Position numbers and translations under genes: made by a program. A model generated the notes under the pieces. The model had not been told where the DNA came from. It was given only the letters and a program-made list of their open reading frames with translations, and made no database searches. From Pyrinomonadaceae bacterium (GTDB lineage Bacteria; Acidobacteriota; Blastocatellia; Pyrinomonadales; Pyrinomonadaceae), in contig JANWYH010000005.1 in assembly GCA_025054715.1 (NCBI GenBank), positions 96,335-160,334 of the forward strand: a stretch of 64,000 bases of DNA, given 5' to 3'. Shown one piece after another: positions 15,397 through 22,635 of this stretch; positions within the stretch are counted from its first letter, which is position 1, and every line of letters starts with the position of its first letter.

Positions 15397-16296
15397 TCAA
15401 CTGGCCTTAAGCATTTTTCTTGCTTTTTCCGGAATTTCGCCAATTTGTTCTACGACTTCTACGCCTGCAGACCTAAGCCTTCCAACCTTGCTTTGCCATG
15501 TTCCTTGCCCTGCTTCGATTATCGCTCCTGCGTGCGAATAGCGAGTCCCTGTTTGTGCAGACCTTCCGCCGATATAAGCCAAAATAGGTTTTTTAATCTT
15601 CCCCCTTTCTACTAGATCTGCAATTTGTTCTTCTTGCAATCCTCCGATCTCTCCAATAACAACTATCAATTCCGTCTGATCGTCTAGCTCAAACATCTCG
15701 ACTACTTGAGGCATGGTCAGCCCAACAACTGCATCTCCCCCGACATGACAAATTGTTGAAACGCCTAAACCAGTTTGACTAATATAATAACCAGTTGAAG
15801 CTGAAAGCCCGCCGCTCCGAGAAACTATACCAACGCAACCGGTTCGAAACCAACTACGCGCCGCTTCGGCACTTCCTCCTATCATTCCTAATACGGCCTT
15901 GCCAGGAGAAATGATACCAACCGTGTTCGGACCGACAAATTTCGCTCCTTTCTCGTCAGCCACTTCGCAAATTTCTAAGACGTCATACAGAGGAACTCTA
16001 TCGGCAATCAAAGCTAAAAGCGGAATTCCTGCTCCGATCGCTTCCATTGCAGCTTCCTTAACTTTAGGAGCAGGAACGAAAATTACGCTAACATCAACTC
16101 TACCCAAATTCCTTACGGCTTCCTCGACCGTATCAAACACTGGAAGTCCGTGAACTTGGGCTCCACCACGCCCGGGCGTACAACCTCCTATAACCCGTGT
16201 TCCATATTCAAGCATTAGTTTAGTTCTAGCAGAACCTTCTCTACCAGTTATTCCCTGCACGATTACTGACTTGGTCTCATCAATTAGAATTGCCAT
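15397..16296 (-). CDS. SucD-like acyl-CoA synthetase alpha subunit
   Basis: This 299-residue CoA-binding subunit resembles succinyl-CoA synthetase alpha. It has the Rossmann-type CoA site (VIVQGITGREGSART, TPGRGGAQVHGLPVF) and the phosphohistidine region SHAGAIIEAGQGTW with the active histidine kept. With the adjacent SucC-like subunit it should form an acid-CoA ligase. Citryl-CoA synthetase (CcsB) and malate-CoA ligase alpha subunits are built the same way, so the acid is not fixed by family. I use the ATG at 16296, preceded by AAGGA with 7-base spacing; it lies inside the end of the upstream gene. It is the last gene of the seven-gene operon. Confidence 0.85.
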   Translation of the reverse strand: MAILIDETKSVIVQGITGREGSARTKLMLEYGTRVIGGCTPGRGGAQVHGLPVFDTVEEAVRNLGRVDVSVIFVPAPKVKEAAMEAIGAGIPLLALIADRVPLYDVLEICEVADEKGAKFVGPNTVGIISPGKAVLGMIGGSAEAARSWFRTGCVGIVSRSGGLSASTGYYISQTGLGVSTICHVGGDAVVGLTMPQVVEMFELDDQTELIVVIGEIGGLQEEQIADLVERGKIKKPILAYIGGRSAQTGTRYSHAGAIIEAGQGTWQSKVGRLRSAGVEVVEQIGEIPEKARKMLKAS

Positions 16297-17782
16297 CTTC
16301 AAGTCCTTCAATAGGAAATTCGACTTTCACACCACCAAAACCTTTTTCCCAGCTAGCAAATTCACAGGCTAAACACTCTATACATTTCCCGCGTTCAGCA
16401 TCCGCAGGGTCAATCGCAAGAATCGGTAAACCTTGCTCGTCCTTTTTTAAAATCTTCACAGGACACGCCTCCACTACATAAGAAGCATCCACCTTTTCAA
16501 AAATCGAATGATTAAAAATTATCCTTCCCGTTTTGGTCTTAAACTCATAAAGTTTTCCTTCGAAGCTAAAAGCTGGAAGCTCTTCAAAGTTTGAATTTTC
16601 ATTTGCTTCTTCTATTAAGCTTCTCAATCTTGAAGCACAAAAGTCTGCTGAATGATTCTTTTGATAAGCTTCAATAGGCATCGGTAAGAATTTGCCAAAA
16701 TTTTCTACTATCTGTTTAGCAACTTCTTCACCATTGCCGCCAAGTCTCAATACAGCCGGTATTTTCGGCCTTTCTTCCAAGAAAGCCTTCAAAACTCCCC
16801 TTGCCAGAATAAACTGCTCCTGGCTAGCAACGCCTGATCCAGAAAGAAAATAACCTCGAATGCCTTTTATGGAAAGAATTATTCGAGCAGCGCGATAAAT
16901 TTTCGATGCCGGCGGATTTCCACTAGTATCAACATAACATGCCGGTCTTAAGCCATTCCTCTCTGCAGCATCAAGCGATGCCATTGAACCTCCACCACCA
17001 GCCCCATGAAAACCTATTTTTATCCCCGGTTTAAACTCATCATCAATTTCAACAAAGTAAAAGGTCCCCCTATAGTCATTTTTTTCAACCTGCCAAGCCA
17101 ACTTCTCAAGTCTTGTCGGCGTGTGACCAAGTTCGCGCGCTACTTCTATGTCCAAATCTTCGTGCCTGAAAACCGCGTAATCATCAACCGAAATTCTGCA
17201 ATCAAGAGCAACAAAACTTCTATTACCTGAAAGCACTAAAGGATTTATTTCCGCACTTCTTGCTTCGTACTCTCTAGCTAATCTGTAAAGCTTTTGCAAG
17301 ATAGCAGCAACTCCTTCATCTGAACAGATCGTCTTTATCTGCTCAATCGTAGGCTCATGACGAACCGAGCAAACAAGTCTCTTGGTCGTCTCAGCCCTAT
17401 CCTCTATTCCACTTCCGCCAAATTCAGAAAAAAGAAGAACAGGTCTTTTTAAAACTGTGTCAATTATAAATCCCAAATAAAACTCCTTTTCGATCTCAAC
17501 TTTTTCCTCAACAAGCAAAGCTTCACAGAGATTATTGTCAATGCGGCTACCCAAAATTTCTGATGCTATCTTTCGAGCTTCTTCAGCCGTTTTGGCAAAT
17601 TTTATGCCGCCTTTTGACGCTCTCGAAGTCGAGTGAATTTGCGCTTTTATGACACATTTTCCACCTAGTCTTTCCGCAACATTGAAGGCTGATTCAGCAT
17701 TGTAAACGACTTCGCCTTTCGGAATCTCTATGCCGTAGCGAGCAAGAATTTGTTTAGCCTTGTATTCATGTAACTTTGCCAT
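16280..17782 (-). CDS. SucC-like CoA ligase beta subunit fused to a ferredoxin-like domain
   Basis: Residues 1 to about 390 match the beta subunit of succinyl-CoA synthetase: ATP-grasp start MAKLHEYKAKQILARYG, the KAQIHSTSRASKGGIKFAK strand, and GFHGAGGGGSMASLDAAE near the nucleotide site. The protein is 500 residues, about 110 longer than SucC. The extra C-terminus holds Cys440-Pro, then Cys467, Cys470 and Cys473 in a CxxCxxC pattern, as in FixX/ETF-QO-like ferredoxin domains that bind one [4Fe-4S] cluster. A ferredoxin module on a CoA ligase is unusual and its role is unknown. It precedes the SucD-like gene with a 17-base overlap and follows leuD by 7 bases. The substrate is not determined. 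Confidence 0.8.
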   Translation of the reverse strand: MAKLHEYKAKQILARYGIEIPKGEVVYNAESAFNVAERLGGKCVIKAQIHSTSRASKGGIKFAKTAEEARKIASEILGSRIDNNLCEALLVEEKVEIEKEFYLGFIIDTVLKRPVLLFSEFGGSGIEDRAETTKRLVCSVRHEPTIEQIKTICSDEGVAAILQKLYRLAREYEARSAEINPLVLSGNRSFVALDCRISVDDYAVFRHEDLDIEVARELGHTPTRLEKLAWQVEKNDYRGTFYFVEIDDEFKPGIKIGFHGAGGGGSMASLDAAERNGLRPACYVDTSGNPPASKIYRAARIILSIKGIRGYFLSGSGVASQEQFILARGVLKAFLEERPKIPAVLRLGGNGEEVAKQIVENFGKFLPMPIEAYQKNHSADFCASRLRSLIEEANENSNFEELPAFSFEGKLYEFKTKTGRIIFNHSIFEKVDASYVVEACPVKILKKDEQGLPILAIDPADAERGKCIECLACEFASWEKGFGGVKVEFPIEGLEDGNSN

Positions 17783-17789
17783 ATCAAAC

Positions 17790-18395
17790 TTAAACTTTCG
17801 GCATCCAAGCGGGACGCTTTTTTTCGTAATTCCTTATCTCTTTTTCGAATCGCAGTATCATGTCTATATCGTCCCAACCGTTTAGGAGCTTTTCGCGTCT
17901 GAAGTCCTCTATCTCAAAGTCAATCGACAAACCGAAGTCGTCAGAAACTTTCTTTTTCAACAAGCTTACAACTAGTTCGTAGTTTTGGATTTCTTCATTC
18001 TTCCTGACAAGTTCTTCAACCGTTTTCTCTGGCAAATTTATCGGCAAAAGTCCAACGTTGAAGCAGTTGTTGTAAAAGATTTCACCAAAGGAAGGAGCAA
18101 TGACAACTCTGAAACCATAATCACGCAAAGCCCAAACAGCATGTTCGCGTGAGCTACCACTGCCAAAATTTTTACCCGCCAGAAGAATCGAAGCATGCTT
18201 AAACTGCGGTTGATTTAACACAAATTCCTTATTTTGATTTCCGTTTTCGTCAAATCGCCAATCATAAAATAAAAAATCACCAAAACCAGTTTTTTCAATT
18301 CTCTTTAAAAATTGCTTCGGTAGAATTTGATCCGTATCGATATTTGGCTGAAAAAGTGCGACCGTTTTACCTCGATGCTCGATAAATTTTTCCAT
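17790..18395 (-). CDS. leuD: 3-Isopropylmalate dehydratase small subunit (LeuD-like)
   Basis: A 201-residue swivel-domain subunit of the aconitase superfamily. NIDTDQILPKQFLKRI, the GKNFGSGSSREHAVWAL loop that binds the substrate carboxylate, and IFYNNCFNVGLLPI are all typical of proteobacterial-type LeuD, and length matches. With LeuC it isomerises 2- and 3-isopropylmalate in leucine synthesis. Here leuA and leuB are absent and the neighbours handle tricarboxylate-like chemistry, so the pair may instead, or also, hydrate aconitate-like or citraconate-like acids. The ATG follows the leuC stop directly. Confidence 0.88.
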   Translation of the reverse strand: MEKFIEHRGKTVALFQPNIDTDQILPKQFLKRIEKTGFGDFLFYDWRFDENGNQNKEFVLNQPQFKHASILLAGKNFGSGSSREHAVWALRDYGFRVVIAPSFGEIFYNNCFNVGLLPINLPEKTVEELVRKNEEIQNYELVVSLLKKKVSDDFGLSIDFEIEDFRREKLLNGWDDIDMILRFEKEIRNYEKKRPAWMPKV

Positions 18396-19793
18396 TTACC
18401 GAAACCTCCAATCCCTAACGTCAACAAAATGCCCAGCTATGGCGGCCGCTGCAACCATTGCTGGTGATGCTAGATGAGTCCTTCCTCCTCGTCCTTGCCT
18501 TCCCTCAAAATTTCTGTTCGAAGTTGATGCGCATCTTTCTAGAGGTAAAAGGCGATCATCATTCATTGCAATACACATAGAGCAACCAGGATTACGCCAC
18601 TCAAAACCTGCTTCAACAAAAATTCTCGCAAGTCCTTCTGCTTCGGCTTGTCTTTTTACCGTTTGTGAACCAGGAACTACCATAGCCTTGACTTTAGGAT
18701 TAACGCGATAGCCCTTTACTACTTTCGCTGCCATTCTCAAATCTTCTATCCGCGAATTTGTGCACGAACCGATGAAAGCTCTATCAATCTTTATGCTTGT
18801 AATCTTCTGCATCGGCTCTAAACCCATGTATCGGAGCGCTCTTTCATAAGAGCTTTTTTCCAAATCATTTTTCGCCTCTGAAGGATCAGGAACAAAGCCG
18901 TTTACGGCGGTGACCATGGCAGGAGTTGTTCCCCAAGTAACCTGCGGTTCAATTTCAGAAGCATCAAAAGACAGAACAACATCAAAAGCCTTATCTGAGT
19001 CGCTTTTCAAATCCTCCCAAAATTTCAAAGCTAAATCCCAAGTCTTCCCTTTCGGAGAATAAGCTCTATCTTTTAGATACTCAAAAGTTACCTCGTCAGG
19101 TGAAATAAGTCCCGCACGAGCTCCAGCTTCGATGCTCATGTTGCAAACCGTCATTCTACCCTCCATTGAAAGATTGCGTATCGCCTCACCGTCATATTCG
19201 ACAACGTATCCACTTGCACCTTCCGTTCCTATCCTGCCAATAACAAACAAAATTAAATCCTTCGCCGTGACACTATTAGATAATCTTTTTTCAACTTTTA
19301 TCAATAAATTTTTCGACTTGATCTGACGAATACACTGAGTAGCCAGGACTTGCTCCACCTCGCTTGTTCCAATTCCAAAGGAAAGCGCCCCAAAGGCTCC
19401 ATGCGTGGAAGTATGAGAGTCTCCACAAACAATGATCATACCAGGCTGAACTAGACCCATCTCAGGAGCGAATACATGAACTATTCCTTGATTCTGAGTA
19501 CCTAGATCAAAAAACTTTACACCAAATTTATTGCAATTTTCTCTAAAAACTTGAACTTGCTTAGCCGCAAATTCATCTTCAATGAGAGTATCTTTAGTTG
19601 GAACGGAATGATCCAGCGTCCCTATTGTTAAATCTGTCCGCCTTATCTTTCTACCTCTTTTCATTAAGCCATCGTACGCTTGCGGCGTTGTCACTTCATG
19701 AATAAGATGTAAGTCAACATAAAGTAGAGCAACTTTCTCCGACTCGTATGCAACAACGTGAGATTCCCAGATTTTGTCATACAATGTTTTCAT
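18396..19793 (-). CDS. leuC: 3-Isopropylmalate dehydratase large subunit (LeuC-like)
   Basis: A 465-residue [4Fe-4S] hydro-lyase of the aconitase superfamily, equal in length to E. coli LeuC. It starts [12 protein letters not shown], keeps [20 protein letters not shown], and has the cluster cysteines in GSCTNSR and NPGCSMC. The reaction is dehydration/rehydration of a hydroxy di- or tricarboxylic acid. Sequence alone favours isopropylmalate; the operon context suggests a possible role with other acids. It overlaps the MmgE/PrpD gene by 4 bases (ATGA) and abuts leuD, so LeuC and LeuD are made together. Confidence 0.88.
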
Positions 19794-21181
19794 GCTTTCA
19801 TAGCAATTTCGTCCCTTACAAGAAGCTTCATCAAATCGGAAATTTTCTCGACTGATTCAAGATTGTAAATCGTCTCAAAAATTCGCTCCTGCTGTTTTTC
19901 ACCCAGTGTCCAGTTGGCTAAATGTCTAAATTTTTCCTTTAGCTCTTCGACGGTCAGCTTATCTCTAGGATCACCTTTTGGAAAGCGCCGTTCTTGTTGC
20001 AAAATGCGCCCGTCGAAAGTTTTTATAACAACTCTACAAGGCTGCTCCAAAGGAAATCTTGATTCAAAACTAGGCTCTAAAACAGCTTTTATCTTTTGAA
20101 TATTACTTAAAATTTTCTCGTCTCTGAGGGCTTCAGGACTAAATTCTTCGGTAGTCAATCTTCTACGCACAATAGCTGCTGCAATGCAATATGGCAAGCT
20201 GTGATCGGCAGTTTCTCTAGAATCTATCACGTATTTTTTTTCATCAGCAAGGATTTCAGCCGCACGTTTGAGAGTATAGATCTCTACAGACTCGATTTCT
20301 TCAGGCTTTAAGTTATGCTCGAAAACCAAGTCCAGAACAGCAGAGATCGGAGCATGTGTTAGAGCTTCTGATGGAAAGGGCTTTATTGAGCATTCCGCAA
20401 TTTTAAATCCTTCGCCCAGGCCTTTCGTAAGCACTTCTGGATTCCATTGCTCGCCAATGGACTCGAAAAGCCCTTCACGCCCCTCAAAAATTTCTTTCGG
20501 AGCTTTGTAACCCTTCTTAGCTAGCAAAGCTGCGAAAACACCTGCTTCTGTTGCCATCGGATCAACTGTATTTTTCATCATCGTAAGCGCACCAGCCGTG
20601 ACAGCACCTAAAGTAATTGAGTGCGATCCACTGATTCCTATAGCATTAGTCATCTGCTCAGGTGTCAATCTAAGCATCTTGCCAGCAACTACAGGCGAAA
20701 CAAAAGCCGTAAGAGTAGCATGGTGAATGCCCAGCTCACGAAGACCTGGAAAAGCCGCTTCCATCAAGCGCATTTCAAGCTCATACGCAAGCACTATAGC
20801 TGTTAAAAGTTCCTTTCCGTTTCTACCCTCCCTTTCGCCAACGCAGAATGCTGCCGGTAAAAGATCGCTCGGATGACTCGGGTCTTGCTTCCAGTAAACA
20901 TCATTGTAATCAAGCGCACGAATCGCAACCGCATTGATCAAGGATGCACTCCGAACATCTGTTTTAAGGCTGGAGCCTATGACAGAACATTCTGCCGGAC
21001 CACCTATTTCCCTAAAAGTTTCTTCTAAAACACGAAAATCTTCGGTCCTGGCTCCACCCAAAGCACATCCTATGCTGTCGTAAAGAAACATCTTCGCAGC
21101 ACTGATAGCTTCAGCCGATAGATCTTCGAATTTTAGCTCGTATGCATACTCAGCCCAAATTTGCGAAATTGTTTTTTTCAT
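19790..21181 (-). CDS. MmgE/PrpD family protein
   Basis: A 463-residue member of the MmgE/PrpD fold, which includes 2-methylcitrate dehydratase and cis-aconitate decarboxylase. Family landmarks are [11 protein letters not shown] near residue 33, [23 protein letters not shown] near 110, and [23 protein letters not shown] near 200. Length is normal. It presumably dehydrates or decarboxylates a citrate-like acid. Which of the two cannot be told from sequence by eye. It is the third gene of the operon, 4 bases after the HD gene and overlapping leuC. Other methylcitrate-cycle genes such as prpB are not present here. Confidence 0.88.
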
Positions 21182-21185
21182 AAAA

Positions 21186-21752
21186 TCAAAACGGTCTCTT
21201 CTTACTTACAAGATCAAAATCAATAAAATCAGCGTGATGAAAAATCACAGACTCATTCGAACGAGTCATGATATCACCTTCTTTAGAATGAGTGGCAATA
21301 ATGTGCTGAATCTCTAGCGGGATACCTCTTAAATGACTCATCGCAACTCCTATGAACGGATGCCTCAGATGCCTGCCACGCCCCGTTCGGATTATTTTTC
21401 CATCCTGCTCCTCGTATTCAATCAGTTTTCCAACATCGGCAAGCAAAGCCCCGGCTATTAAATAGTCTCGATTCAGCTTAATTCTATCGCCATAAGAGTC
21501 TTTCAAAACGTCAGCTACTGCTATGCACATTTTACAGACGGTCCGAACGTGCTCAATAAAAGTTATGTTGCAGTCTTCAACATGCAAAGAAAACGGCATC
21601 TTTTTGATTTTCTCAATTGTCCAACCACCCTGACTGATAGCGTCTTGCCAAACGTTGATGGTTTTTTCCCTTAATTCTTCATCCGCTATCAAATTAAACT
21701 CAGGTATCAACTGAATTATCTCGTTCTTCAAACCAACCGCACTGCTCATCAT
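21186..21752 (-). CDS. HD-domain protein with altered HD motif
   Basis: A 188-residue protein with an HD phosphohydrolase layout: first histidine in FIEHVRTVC (His68), the doublet region GALLADVGKL, then His150/His155 and a late FHHADFIDFD. The central doublet, normally His-Asp, reads Ala105-Asp106. Metal binding may therefore be weakened, or the protein may have become a binding or structural partner. GAGGAAAA precedes the ATG. It lies between the citrate-synthase-like gene (28 bases) and the MmgE/PrpD gene (4 bases), so it belongs to the operon, but its job there is unknown. A second ATG one codon later is equally possible. Confidence 0.75.
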   Translation of the reverse strand: MMSSAVGLKNEIIQLIPEFNLIADEELREKTINVWQDAISQGGWTIEKIKKMPFSLHVEDCNITFIEHVRTVCKMCIAVADVLKDSYGDRIKLNRDYLIAGALLADVGKLIEYEEQDGKIIRTGRGRHLRHPFIGVAMSHLRGIPLEIQHIIATHSKEGDIMTRSNESVIFHHADFIDFDLVSKKRPF

Positions 21753-21780: not shown

Positions 21781-22602
21781 CTATTTAGTTTTCAAAATTT
21801 GACCCGAGTTTGTCAAATCCACTAGTTCGTCTAATTTCTTATCAAGCTCGCCTTCATATTCGTATTCTTCGACATTAACGGTTCGCATTGGCAAATTTCG
21901 CTCCTTTTCTTCAATAACATGAGCTATTAGTCCAACGATTCGAGAAGCCATAAATAGCCCATTTGCCGCTACAGGCGGAAACTTAAGCTCACAAAGAATT
22001 GCAGCTATTGCTCCATCGGCATTCATCGGTAACTTCTTGTTAAATCTTTCAACAAAAACTCGTTCTATTGCTCTAGCTTGAGATACATATTTACCTGCTA
22101 TTTTCAAGCTTTCAGCTATCTCGAAAAGCTTTGTAACTCGCGGATCAGATGAATGAAAACGATGCCCGAAGCCAGAAACCCTTTTGCCCTCCTTTCTGTA
22201 GGCTCTGATAATTGCCTCTGCGGCCTCATCTTCGGTCAAAGATTCAGATTGCCGTAAATCAACAGCTCGAGAGATTGCGTGCATTGCACTCTCGATAGCT
22301 CCGCCATGATACTCATTTATGGCAAGTATGCCGGCAGCTACGGCACTGCTCAATCCCGCTCCCGTATTCGCAACGGTAACTGCCGCAACTGTAGAAGGAG
22401 GACGAACACCGTGATCTACGACCGAAACCATTATCGCTTCTATCATCCGAGCTTCTTGCTCTGCTGGAAATCTTCCGGCGAGAACTAAAAATATTGCTTC
22501 TCCCCAAGAAACTCTGCCTATCAAATCCTCAATCCTGTAACCACGAATATAAATTCTTTCTGCCTCTACCCAAGAAATTGAAGTTTTTCTTTTTTCGTTC
22601 AT
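21781..22602 (-). CDS. Short citrate-synthase-like protein (citryl-CoA lyase type)
   Basis: A 273-residue protein, much shorter than citrate synthase (about 430) but close to citryl-CoA lyase (about 260). It opens TSISWVEAERIYIRGYRIEDLIGR and keeps the fold's catalytic positions: His in YHGGAIESAM, His in GFGHRFHSSDPR, and Asp in MNADGAIAAIL. It should catalyse Claisen condensation or cleavage between an acyl-CoA and an oxo-acid. The SucC/SucD-like ligase in the same operon could supply the CoA ester for cleavage. I chose the ATG at 22602, where family similarity begins; an in-frame ATG at 22626 lies within tandem repeats. Neither has a Shine-Dalgarno site. First gene of the operon. Confidence 0.82.
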   Translation of the reverse strand: MNEKRKTSISWVEAERIYIRGYRIEDLIGRVSWGEAIFLVLAGRFPAEQEARMIEAIMVSVVDHGVRPPSTVAAVTVANTGAGLSSAVAAGILAINEYHGGAIESAMHAISRAVDLRQSESLTEDEAAEAIIRAYRKEGKRVSGFGHRFHSSDPRVTKLFEIAESLKIAGKYVSQARAIERVFVERFNKKLPMNADGAIAAILCELKFPPVAANGLFMASRIVGLIAHVIEEKERNLPMRTVNVEEYEYEGELDKKLDELVDLTNSGQILKTK

Positions 22603-22635
22603 ATTTTGTTGACATTTTGTTGACATTTTGTTGAC
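22603..22635. repeat. Three perfect 11-bp tandem repeats in a divergent regulatory region
   Basis: ATTTTGTTGAC occurs at 22603-22613, 22614-22624 and 22625-22635 without a mismatch. Each copy, with its flanking A, contains the near-palindrome TGTTGACA. The spacing is about one helical turn, as expected for cooperative binding of a regulator on one DNA face. The copies lie directly before the citrate-synthase-like gene and overlap the -35 element of the divergent receptor promoter. Confidence 0.8.

Follow-up and report, generated by a model that had tools for sequence, protein, structure and literature searches.

A ferredoxin-like domain fused to the β-subunit of a citryl-CoA-synthetase-like ligase in Acidobacteriota and Chloroflexota

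Gene organization around the fused ligase

The sequence analysed here, referred to as the window, is a 64,000-nucleotide stretch of a Pyrinomonadaceae genome. Its minus strand carries an open reading frame that starts with ATG and runs for 500 codons with no internal stops, encoding a SucC-like protein with a C-terminal tail (Table 1). The preliminary description of this DNA had taken the tail for a ferredoxin-like [4Fe-4S] domain fused to a CoA ligase β-subunit, on the strength of Cys440-Pro and Cys467-x2-Cys-x2-Cys473, and these residues are present exactly as it reported.

Table 1. Features of the ligase gene and its neighbours, in window coordinates.
Feature	Position	Strand	Remarks
SucD-like α-subunit	15397..16296	-	Catalytic-His motif RYSHAGAI; sequence, TIGR01019 E 3e-87
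SucC-like/citryl-CoA-synthetase-like β-subunit with ferredoxin domain	16280..17782	-	500 aa, stop included; ORF/translation, Pfam, NCBIfam, AlphaFold
Ligase part, aa 1-392	16607..17782	-	ATP-grasp and carboxyl-ligase domain; loops DTSGNPPASK and GSGVASQEQF
Ferredoxin domain, aa 405-500 (~95 residues)	16283..16570	-	One [4Fe-4S] cluster predicted; pLDDT, Foldseek, profile match
F428, V431, V436 (former cluster-I ligand positions)	16475..16501	-	Cys in 31/31 outside the window's family
Cys440, followed by Pro441 (cluster-II ligand)	16463..16465	-	Cys in 35/35 homologues
Cys467-x2-Cys470-x2-Cys473 (remaining three cluster-II ligands)	16364..16384	-	Motif CIECLACE; Cys in 35/35
Ser477 (former fourth cluster-I ligand)	16352..16354	-	Cys in 31/31 others
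LeuC and LeuD	17790..19793	-	TIGR00170/TIGR00171 over cut-off
MmgE/PrpD-family dehydratase	19790..21181	-	PF03972 E 2.8e-69; operon-conserved in same-class genomes and Anaerolineae
HD-domain protein, constant lyase-gene neighbour	21186..21752	-	PF01966; neighbourhoods
Citryl-CoA-lyase-like protein, conserved ligase partner	21781..22626	-	NF004869 over cut-off; best solved match 6hxp, E 8.6e-53

The ATG of the SucD-like gene, at 16296, falls inside the end of the β gene, giving a 17-base overlap with the end of the ferredoxin domain. Of the 24 loci that contig ends leave intact, 22 have a lyase-like gene in the vicinity. In two f12 genomes no lyase accompanies the ligase, and in G001, a sister of the window genome, the SucD-like gene does not adjoin it. 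In the Chloroflexota genome G655 (L095:9867-11564), the SucD-like and lyase-like proteins form one 566-residue polypeptide, encoded directly after the SucC-ferredoxin gene and similar in make-up to the A subunit of ATP-citrate lyase.

Further genes recur around this core. An HD protein of about 180 residues is almost always found beside the lyase-like gene (window, L022-L025, L057, L059-L062, L064, L066, L068-L074 and L076). It is accompanied by either an MmgE/PrpD protein or LeuCD-like proteins with isocitrate/isopropylmalate-dehydrogenase-like enzymes, a gene content consistent with a citrate-like acid, without identifying it. Four operons (L064, L069, L070 and L073) each contain two different LeuCD-type pairs together with an isocitrate/isopropylmalate-dehydrogenase-like gene, suggesting a multi-step pathway acting on a citrate-like acid. 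In Anaerolineae L023 and L025, genes for KorDABC, HdrA-FlpD, HdrBC and EtfAB adjoin the ligase operon and are divergently transcribed. The window LeuC is over the leuC cut-off and is the sole isopropylmalate-isomerase candidate in its genome; we therefore regard LeuC and LeuD as probably leucine biosynthesis genes that happen to lie with the ligase. The earlier proposal that the tail helps to deliver a cluster to LeuC found no support; in three genomes (G017, G031 and G039, at L062, L059 and L057) the corresponding operon has no LeuCD.

Kinship of the ligase to citryl-CoA synthetase and ATP-citrate lyase

The SucC-like stretch covers residues 3 to about 365, with a Pfam match to ATP-grasp_2 at E 2.9e-39, and residues K46, R54, E178-I-N-P, D194 and R346 are invariant in the 35-sequence alignment. 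The ligase resembles SucC in its overall fold (Foldseek matches 9a7l and 3ufx) and in its ATP-grasp catalytic residues; unlike SucC, it has a ferredoxin tail and another acid loop, and it falls below both SucC equivalog cut-offs, with 213 bits against about 375 for TIGR01016 and 211 bits against 370 for NF001913. A separate SucC homologue is present elsewhere in the window genome. The fused protein is a ligase other than ordinary SucC.

For the carboxyl-ligase (C-terminal) half, the closest solved protein is the citryl-CoA synthetase of Hydrogenobacter (6hxq), with which it has GNPPAxKxY in common. The features of a citryl-CoA synthetase or ATP-citrate lyase are found together here: ATP-grasp residues in the β-subunit, the phosphohistidine motif RYSHAGAI in the α-subunit and a linked lyase. 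Hydrogenobacter thermophilus likewise combines a two-subunit ATP-grasp ligase, CcsA/CcsB, with a separate citrate-synthase-like lyase, Ccl (6hxq and 6hxp); its CcsA, however, is without a ferredoxin domain. In ATP-citrate lyase (AclA/AclB, ACLY), a β-subunit is accompanied by an α-subunit joined to a citryl-CoA-lyase domain, comparable to the fusion in G655, but the window-type ligase has the additional ferredoxin domain and in most genomes its lyase is separate. Because 6hxq and 6hxp are the nearest solved proteins and SucD is fused to the lyase in G655, we take the functional unit to be a ligase and a lyase working as a pair, in the manner of ATP-citrate lyase.

The acid itself may differ from citrate, since the ANNT loop of citryl-CoA synthetase reads VASQEQF in the window ligase. 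All 35 homologues have VASQEQ where 6hxq has GTANNT, and the citrate-contact loop (the ANNT/ANFT region) is not conserved. The Pfam family Citrate_bind scores 26.6 and 30.3 bits in eight-cysteine relatives, on either side of its cut-off of 26.8, and the window protein lies below that cut-off.

Cysteines, fold and descent of the ferredoxin tail

The tail contains ACPVKIL, with Cys440-Pro, followed by KCIECLACEFAS, with Cys467, Cys470 and Cys473. On a family search alone its Fe-S case would look weak, because as a single sequence it reaches no Pfam or NCBIfam cut-off, the best match being Fer4_7 at E 0.07. We therefore turned to homologues, assembling 35 full-length fusions, the window protein included, from Acidobacteriota and Chloroflexota. 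A profile built from 22 tails, leaving out every member of the window's family, recovered the window tail with E 9.8e-22. Across 396 genomes, no protein other than a fusion scored better than E 2e-6, and the non-fusions at that level or worse include KorD and a DmsB-like ferredoxin. Among PDB sequences, the one nearest to a tail profile is 8ys5_D (E 0.003), which a 2-oxoglutarate:acceptor oxidoreductase has as its ferredoxin subunit. As the four cysteines are invariant in 35/35 and the family-free profile finds the window tail, the pattern is not due to chance. Thus the family search suggested in the preliminary description came back empty for the tail by itself and positive once homologues were pooled. 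The outcome it had named as telling against the domain, no Fe-S family match together with unconserved cysteines, did not arise because the cysteines are fully conserved. Between the tail cysteines, residues E469, L471 and A472 are likewise invariant in alignments A2 and A3, which in sequence terms is compatible with a fixed protein interface.

Structure prediction agrees with the fused ferredoxin-like domain. AlphaFold, run on the window protein with a 35-row alignment, gave a mean pLDDT of 91.3 and a pTM of 0.85, with pLDDT of 94-98 across residues 411-490 and 88.7 for the isolated domain modelled alone. Foldseek matches to the isolated domain are mostly [4Fe-4S] ferredoxin folds, including HydB, PsaC, clostridial ferredoxins and a PFOR ferredoxin subunit; RNA-polymerase subunits with a ferredoxin-like domain take the top ranks, led by 8xmd_C. 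The distances are 2.4 Å to 1fca, 2.1 Å to 1fdn and 2.9 Å to 9bt4_G, and the E-values, from about 0.01 upwards, are weak, a level to be expected of so small a domain. On the model, the tail is predicted to have a ferredoxin fold.

Among the sampled genomes, 31 of 396 from Acidobacteriota, spread over 23 of 210 genera, and 2 of 301 from Chloroflexota carry the fusion, so that the survey called for at the outset did turn up further carriers. These two phyla make up the survey proper; a wider genome-wide scan consisted of one query with five close relatives, and a plasmid collection held no fused homologue among the best matches.

All 31 fusions that do not belong to the window's family carry eight invariant tail cysteines, arranged as CxxCx4CxxxC and then CxxCxxCxxxC. 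In dicluster 2[4Fe-4S] domains, cluster I is held by cysteines 1-3 of the first motif and the last of the second, and cluster II by the last cysteine of the first motif and the first three of the second. The two motifs with crossed fourth ligands are thus seen in 31/31 fusions outside the family and are absent from the window protein. Within the window's family (four genomes, window included), the cluster-I positions are instead occupied by F/I/L, V/E/R/S, I/V and S/A: cluster-I cysteines are kept in 0/4 members versus 31/31 outside, and cluster-II cysteines in 35/35. As read from the alignment, exactly one whole cluster's ligands have been lost in this family and the other cluster's four kept. 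The window domain descends from a dicluster 2[4Fe-4S] ferredoxin with eight cysteines and, as predicted from them, two clusters, and, with only the cluster-II set remaining, the window tail is a reduced descendant of it. The four family sequences form one clade with 100/100 support and a long stem, so the loss is a single evolutionary event. We set aside a relation of cluster number to the number of oxidoreductases, as it is confounded by this single loss in one family.

Dicluster ferredoxins of the KorD/DmsB type have the same fold and give the best non-fusion profile matches, and the cysteine order of the eight-cysteine fusions is that of DmsB types. Those ferredoxins, however, serve oxidoreductases; the fused domain is part of a non-redox ligase and, in the window's family, has one cluster's ligands left.

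In one genome, G411, the domain is encoded separately. Its two paralogous operons (L079:8347-10979 and L080:9146-11665) each have the ferredoxin in a gene of its own, flanked by the SucC-like β and SucD-like α genes, as far as can be read from a low-quality assembly with frameshifts. One of the split genes has its own Shine-Dalgarno sequence, AAAGGAGGAATGAGCATG; the other starts with GTG and overlaps the β stop by 4 bases. Each product is without one cluster-II cysteine (the first Cys changed to Gly, the second Cys to Asp), so a full second cluster is not kept in every copy. One operon adjoins genes for fumarase-like proteins and a CitE-like lyase and the other an HMG-CoA-reductase-like gene; the fumarase and HMG-CoA-reductase names are our presumed reading of the sequences. 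Since the neighbours of the two operons differ, the ferredoxin appears to be tied to the ligase and not to any one lyase or pathway. Beyond G411, no further split ferredoxin gene was found in 400 Chloroflexota or 396 Acidobacteriota genomes.

Possible roles of the ferredoxin domain

Few enzymes of central metabolism are as well studied as the ADP-forming acid-CoA ligases, which include succinyl-CoA synthetase, citryl-CoA synthetase and ATP-citrate lyase. We know of no such ligase with an iron-sulfur cluster. We propose that the β-subunit described here, together with the SucD-like α-subunit and its phosphohistidine site, would form an ATP-dependent acid-CoA ligase of the citryl-CoA-synthetase/ATP-citrate-lyase type. 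The ligase would pass its acyl-CoA to the citryl-CoA-lyase-like protein, yielding an acyl-CoA and a 2-oxo acid. The ferredoxin fold at the C-terminus of the β-subunit, with two [4Fe-4S] clusters ancestrally and probably one in the window lineage, would be a property of the ligase itself and not of an adjoining oxidoreductase. With the cluster present, the domain may fold onto the ligase and favour a productive α/β (and lyase) complex; with the cluster lost or oxidised, activity would fall, and ATP-spending acid cleavage would thereby be tied to the iron-sulfur and redox state of the cell. The sequences themselves show the fusion, the conserved ligands, the loss of exactly one cluster's set, the co-conservation with SucD and the lyase and the separate ferredoxin gene of the paralogous operons; we infer cluster binding, the interface, the control of assembly or activity and the acid, and reach a regulatory role by elimination. 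The whole reading, a ligase-lyase unit whose assembly or activity depends on a cluster in its own ferredoxin domain, is the explanation we tentatively prefer, at somewhat less than an even chance.

The nearest precedent with an experimental test is archaeal Rpo3, in which subunit assembly depends on a ferredoxin-like domain that carries one or two [4Fe-4S] clusters, the two clusters differing in importance (PMC5300874). Rpo3 resembles the ligase in bearing a cluster-carrying ferredoxin fold within a non-redox enzyme, and related RNA-polymerase subunits are the top structural matches to the tail; the host protein is unrelated, however, and the assembly role, tested in Rpo3, is only proposed for the ligase.

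Two readings turn on how the four-cysteine pattern arose. FixX/ETF-QO domains have a four-cysteine spacing, and that of the tail (C-P ... CxxCxxC, at C440-P and C467/470/473) is identical to it, which had led to the assignment of the tail to this type. A FixX/ETF-QO-type domain fused to the ligase and docking electron-transfer flavoprotein partners is nevertheless scarcely credible, and we rejected this membership. Eight cysteines are found in same-class and Chloroflexota relatives, which makes the pattern a product of loss from a dicluster ancestor; the same four ligands remain once the other cluster is gone, and the likeness to FixX is therefore convergent. Over the whole window genome, PF05187 matched only the 585-residue ETF-QO, which has its own Fer4_ETF_QO domain, and not the window protein even at E 0.1, and no ETF-QO entry occurs among the 50 structural matches listed. 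The loss of four of the eight ancestral cysteines could also mean that the tail has degenerated in the window lineage to a relic that binds no cluster. This we consider very unlikely: the losses are exactly the ligands of one cluster, 4/4 family members retain the other four cysteines, and the predicted fold has the high pLDDT given above.

The remaining alternatives accept a cluster and differ on what it does. Electron-transfer docking, in which the domain would exchange electrons with an oxidoreductase and so couple acid activation to ferredoxin-dependent 2-oxoacid metabolism (a reductive TCA-type segment), would account for the divergent KorDABC and HdrA/EtfAB genes beside the Anaerolineae operon, the two to six PF01558 copies in each eight-cysteine carrier and the kinship of the tail profile to 8ys5_D. 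We think it improbable. The window genome and G001 encode no PF01558 proteins, though both keep the domain; an oxidoreductase is absent near most Acidobacteriota loci, and the domain survived the loss of one cluster. In Anaerolineae, KorD is encoded within the KOR operon itself, so the fused domain is no stand-in for it. A domain shared with a 2-oxoacid:ferredoxin oxidoreductase was rejected, as the window genome has no such enzyme. A purely structural cluster, stapling the C-terminal extension without sensing, as in some DNA-repair enzymes, would fit the confident prediction of the tail, the packed interface suggested by E469, L471 and A472 and the dispensability of one cluster in the window's family. 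We rate it unlikely too, given that the separate gene in G411 implies that the domain is not needed merely for holding an extension, and that ordinary SucC and CcsA are without the domain. The preliminary description had offered redox sensing or docking of a partner, and either role may apply. Compared with our preferred reading of cluster-dependent assembly or activity control, a more specific version is doubtful, though conceivable: a redox-gated ATP-citrate-lyase-like enzyme, in which the ferredoxin domain or subunit would sense the low-potential electron pool or oxygen and gate the cleavage of a citrate-like acid at the expense of ATP; one lineage would have reduced a two-cluster sensor to one.

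We found no description of such a ligase-ferredoxin fusion in the literature. It is new as a variant of the citryl-CoA-synthetase/ATP-citrate-lyase kind and not a new kind of system. That the pairing is conserved in two phyla suggests that an iron-sulfur cluster directs the assembly of the enzyme or switches it; with such a conserved domain or subunit, the acid-CoA ligase family would gain an unrecognised layer of control or assembly, and the natural two-cluster and one-cluster forms make its role directly testable. The ligase-lyase pathway is also newly pointed out in Acidobacteriota and Anaerolineae, where automatic annotation of its genes is likely to be plain succinate--CoA ligase. In two same-class genomes (L057:3695-5155 and L059:15142-16584), a dihydropyrimidinase/allantoinase-like amidohydrolase gene follows the MmgE/PrpD gene. 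At L065 and L067, in f12 genomes of about 1.9 Mb, SucC-ferredoxin and SucD occur without the lyase, HD and dehydratase genes and a class II aldolase-family gene adjoins them; the substrate of the ligase may be different there from that at the other loci.
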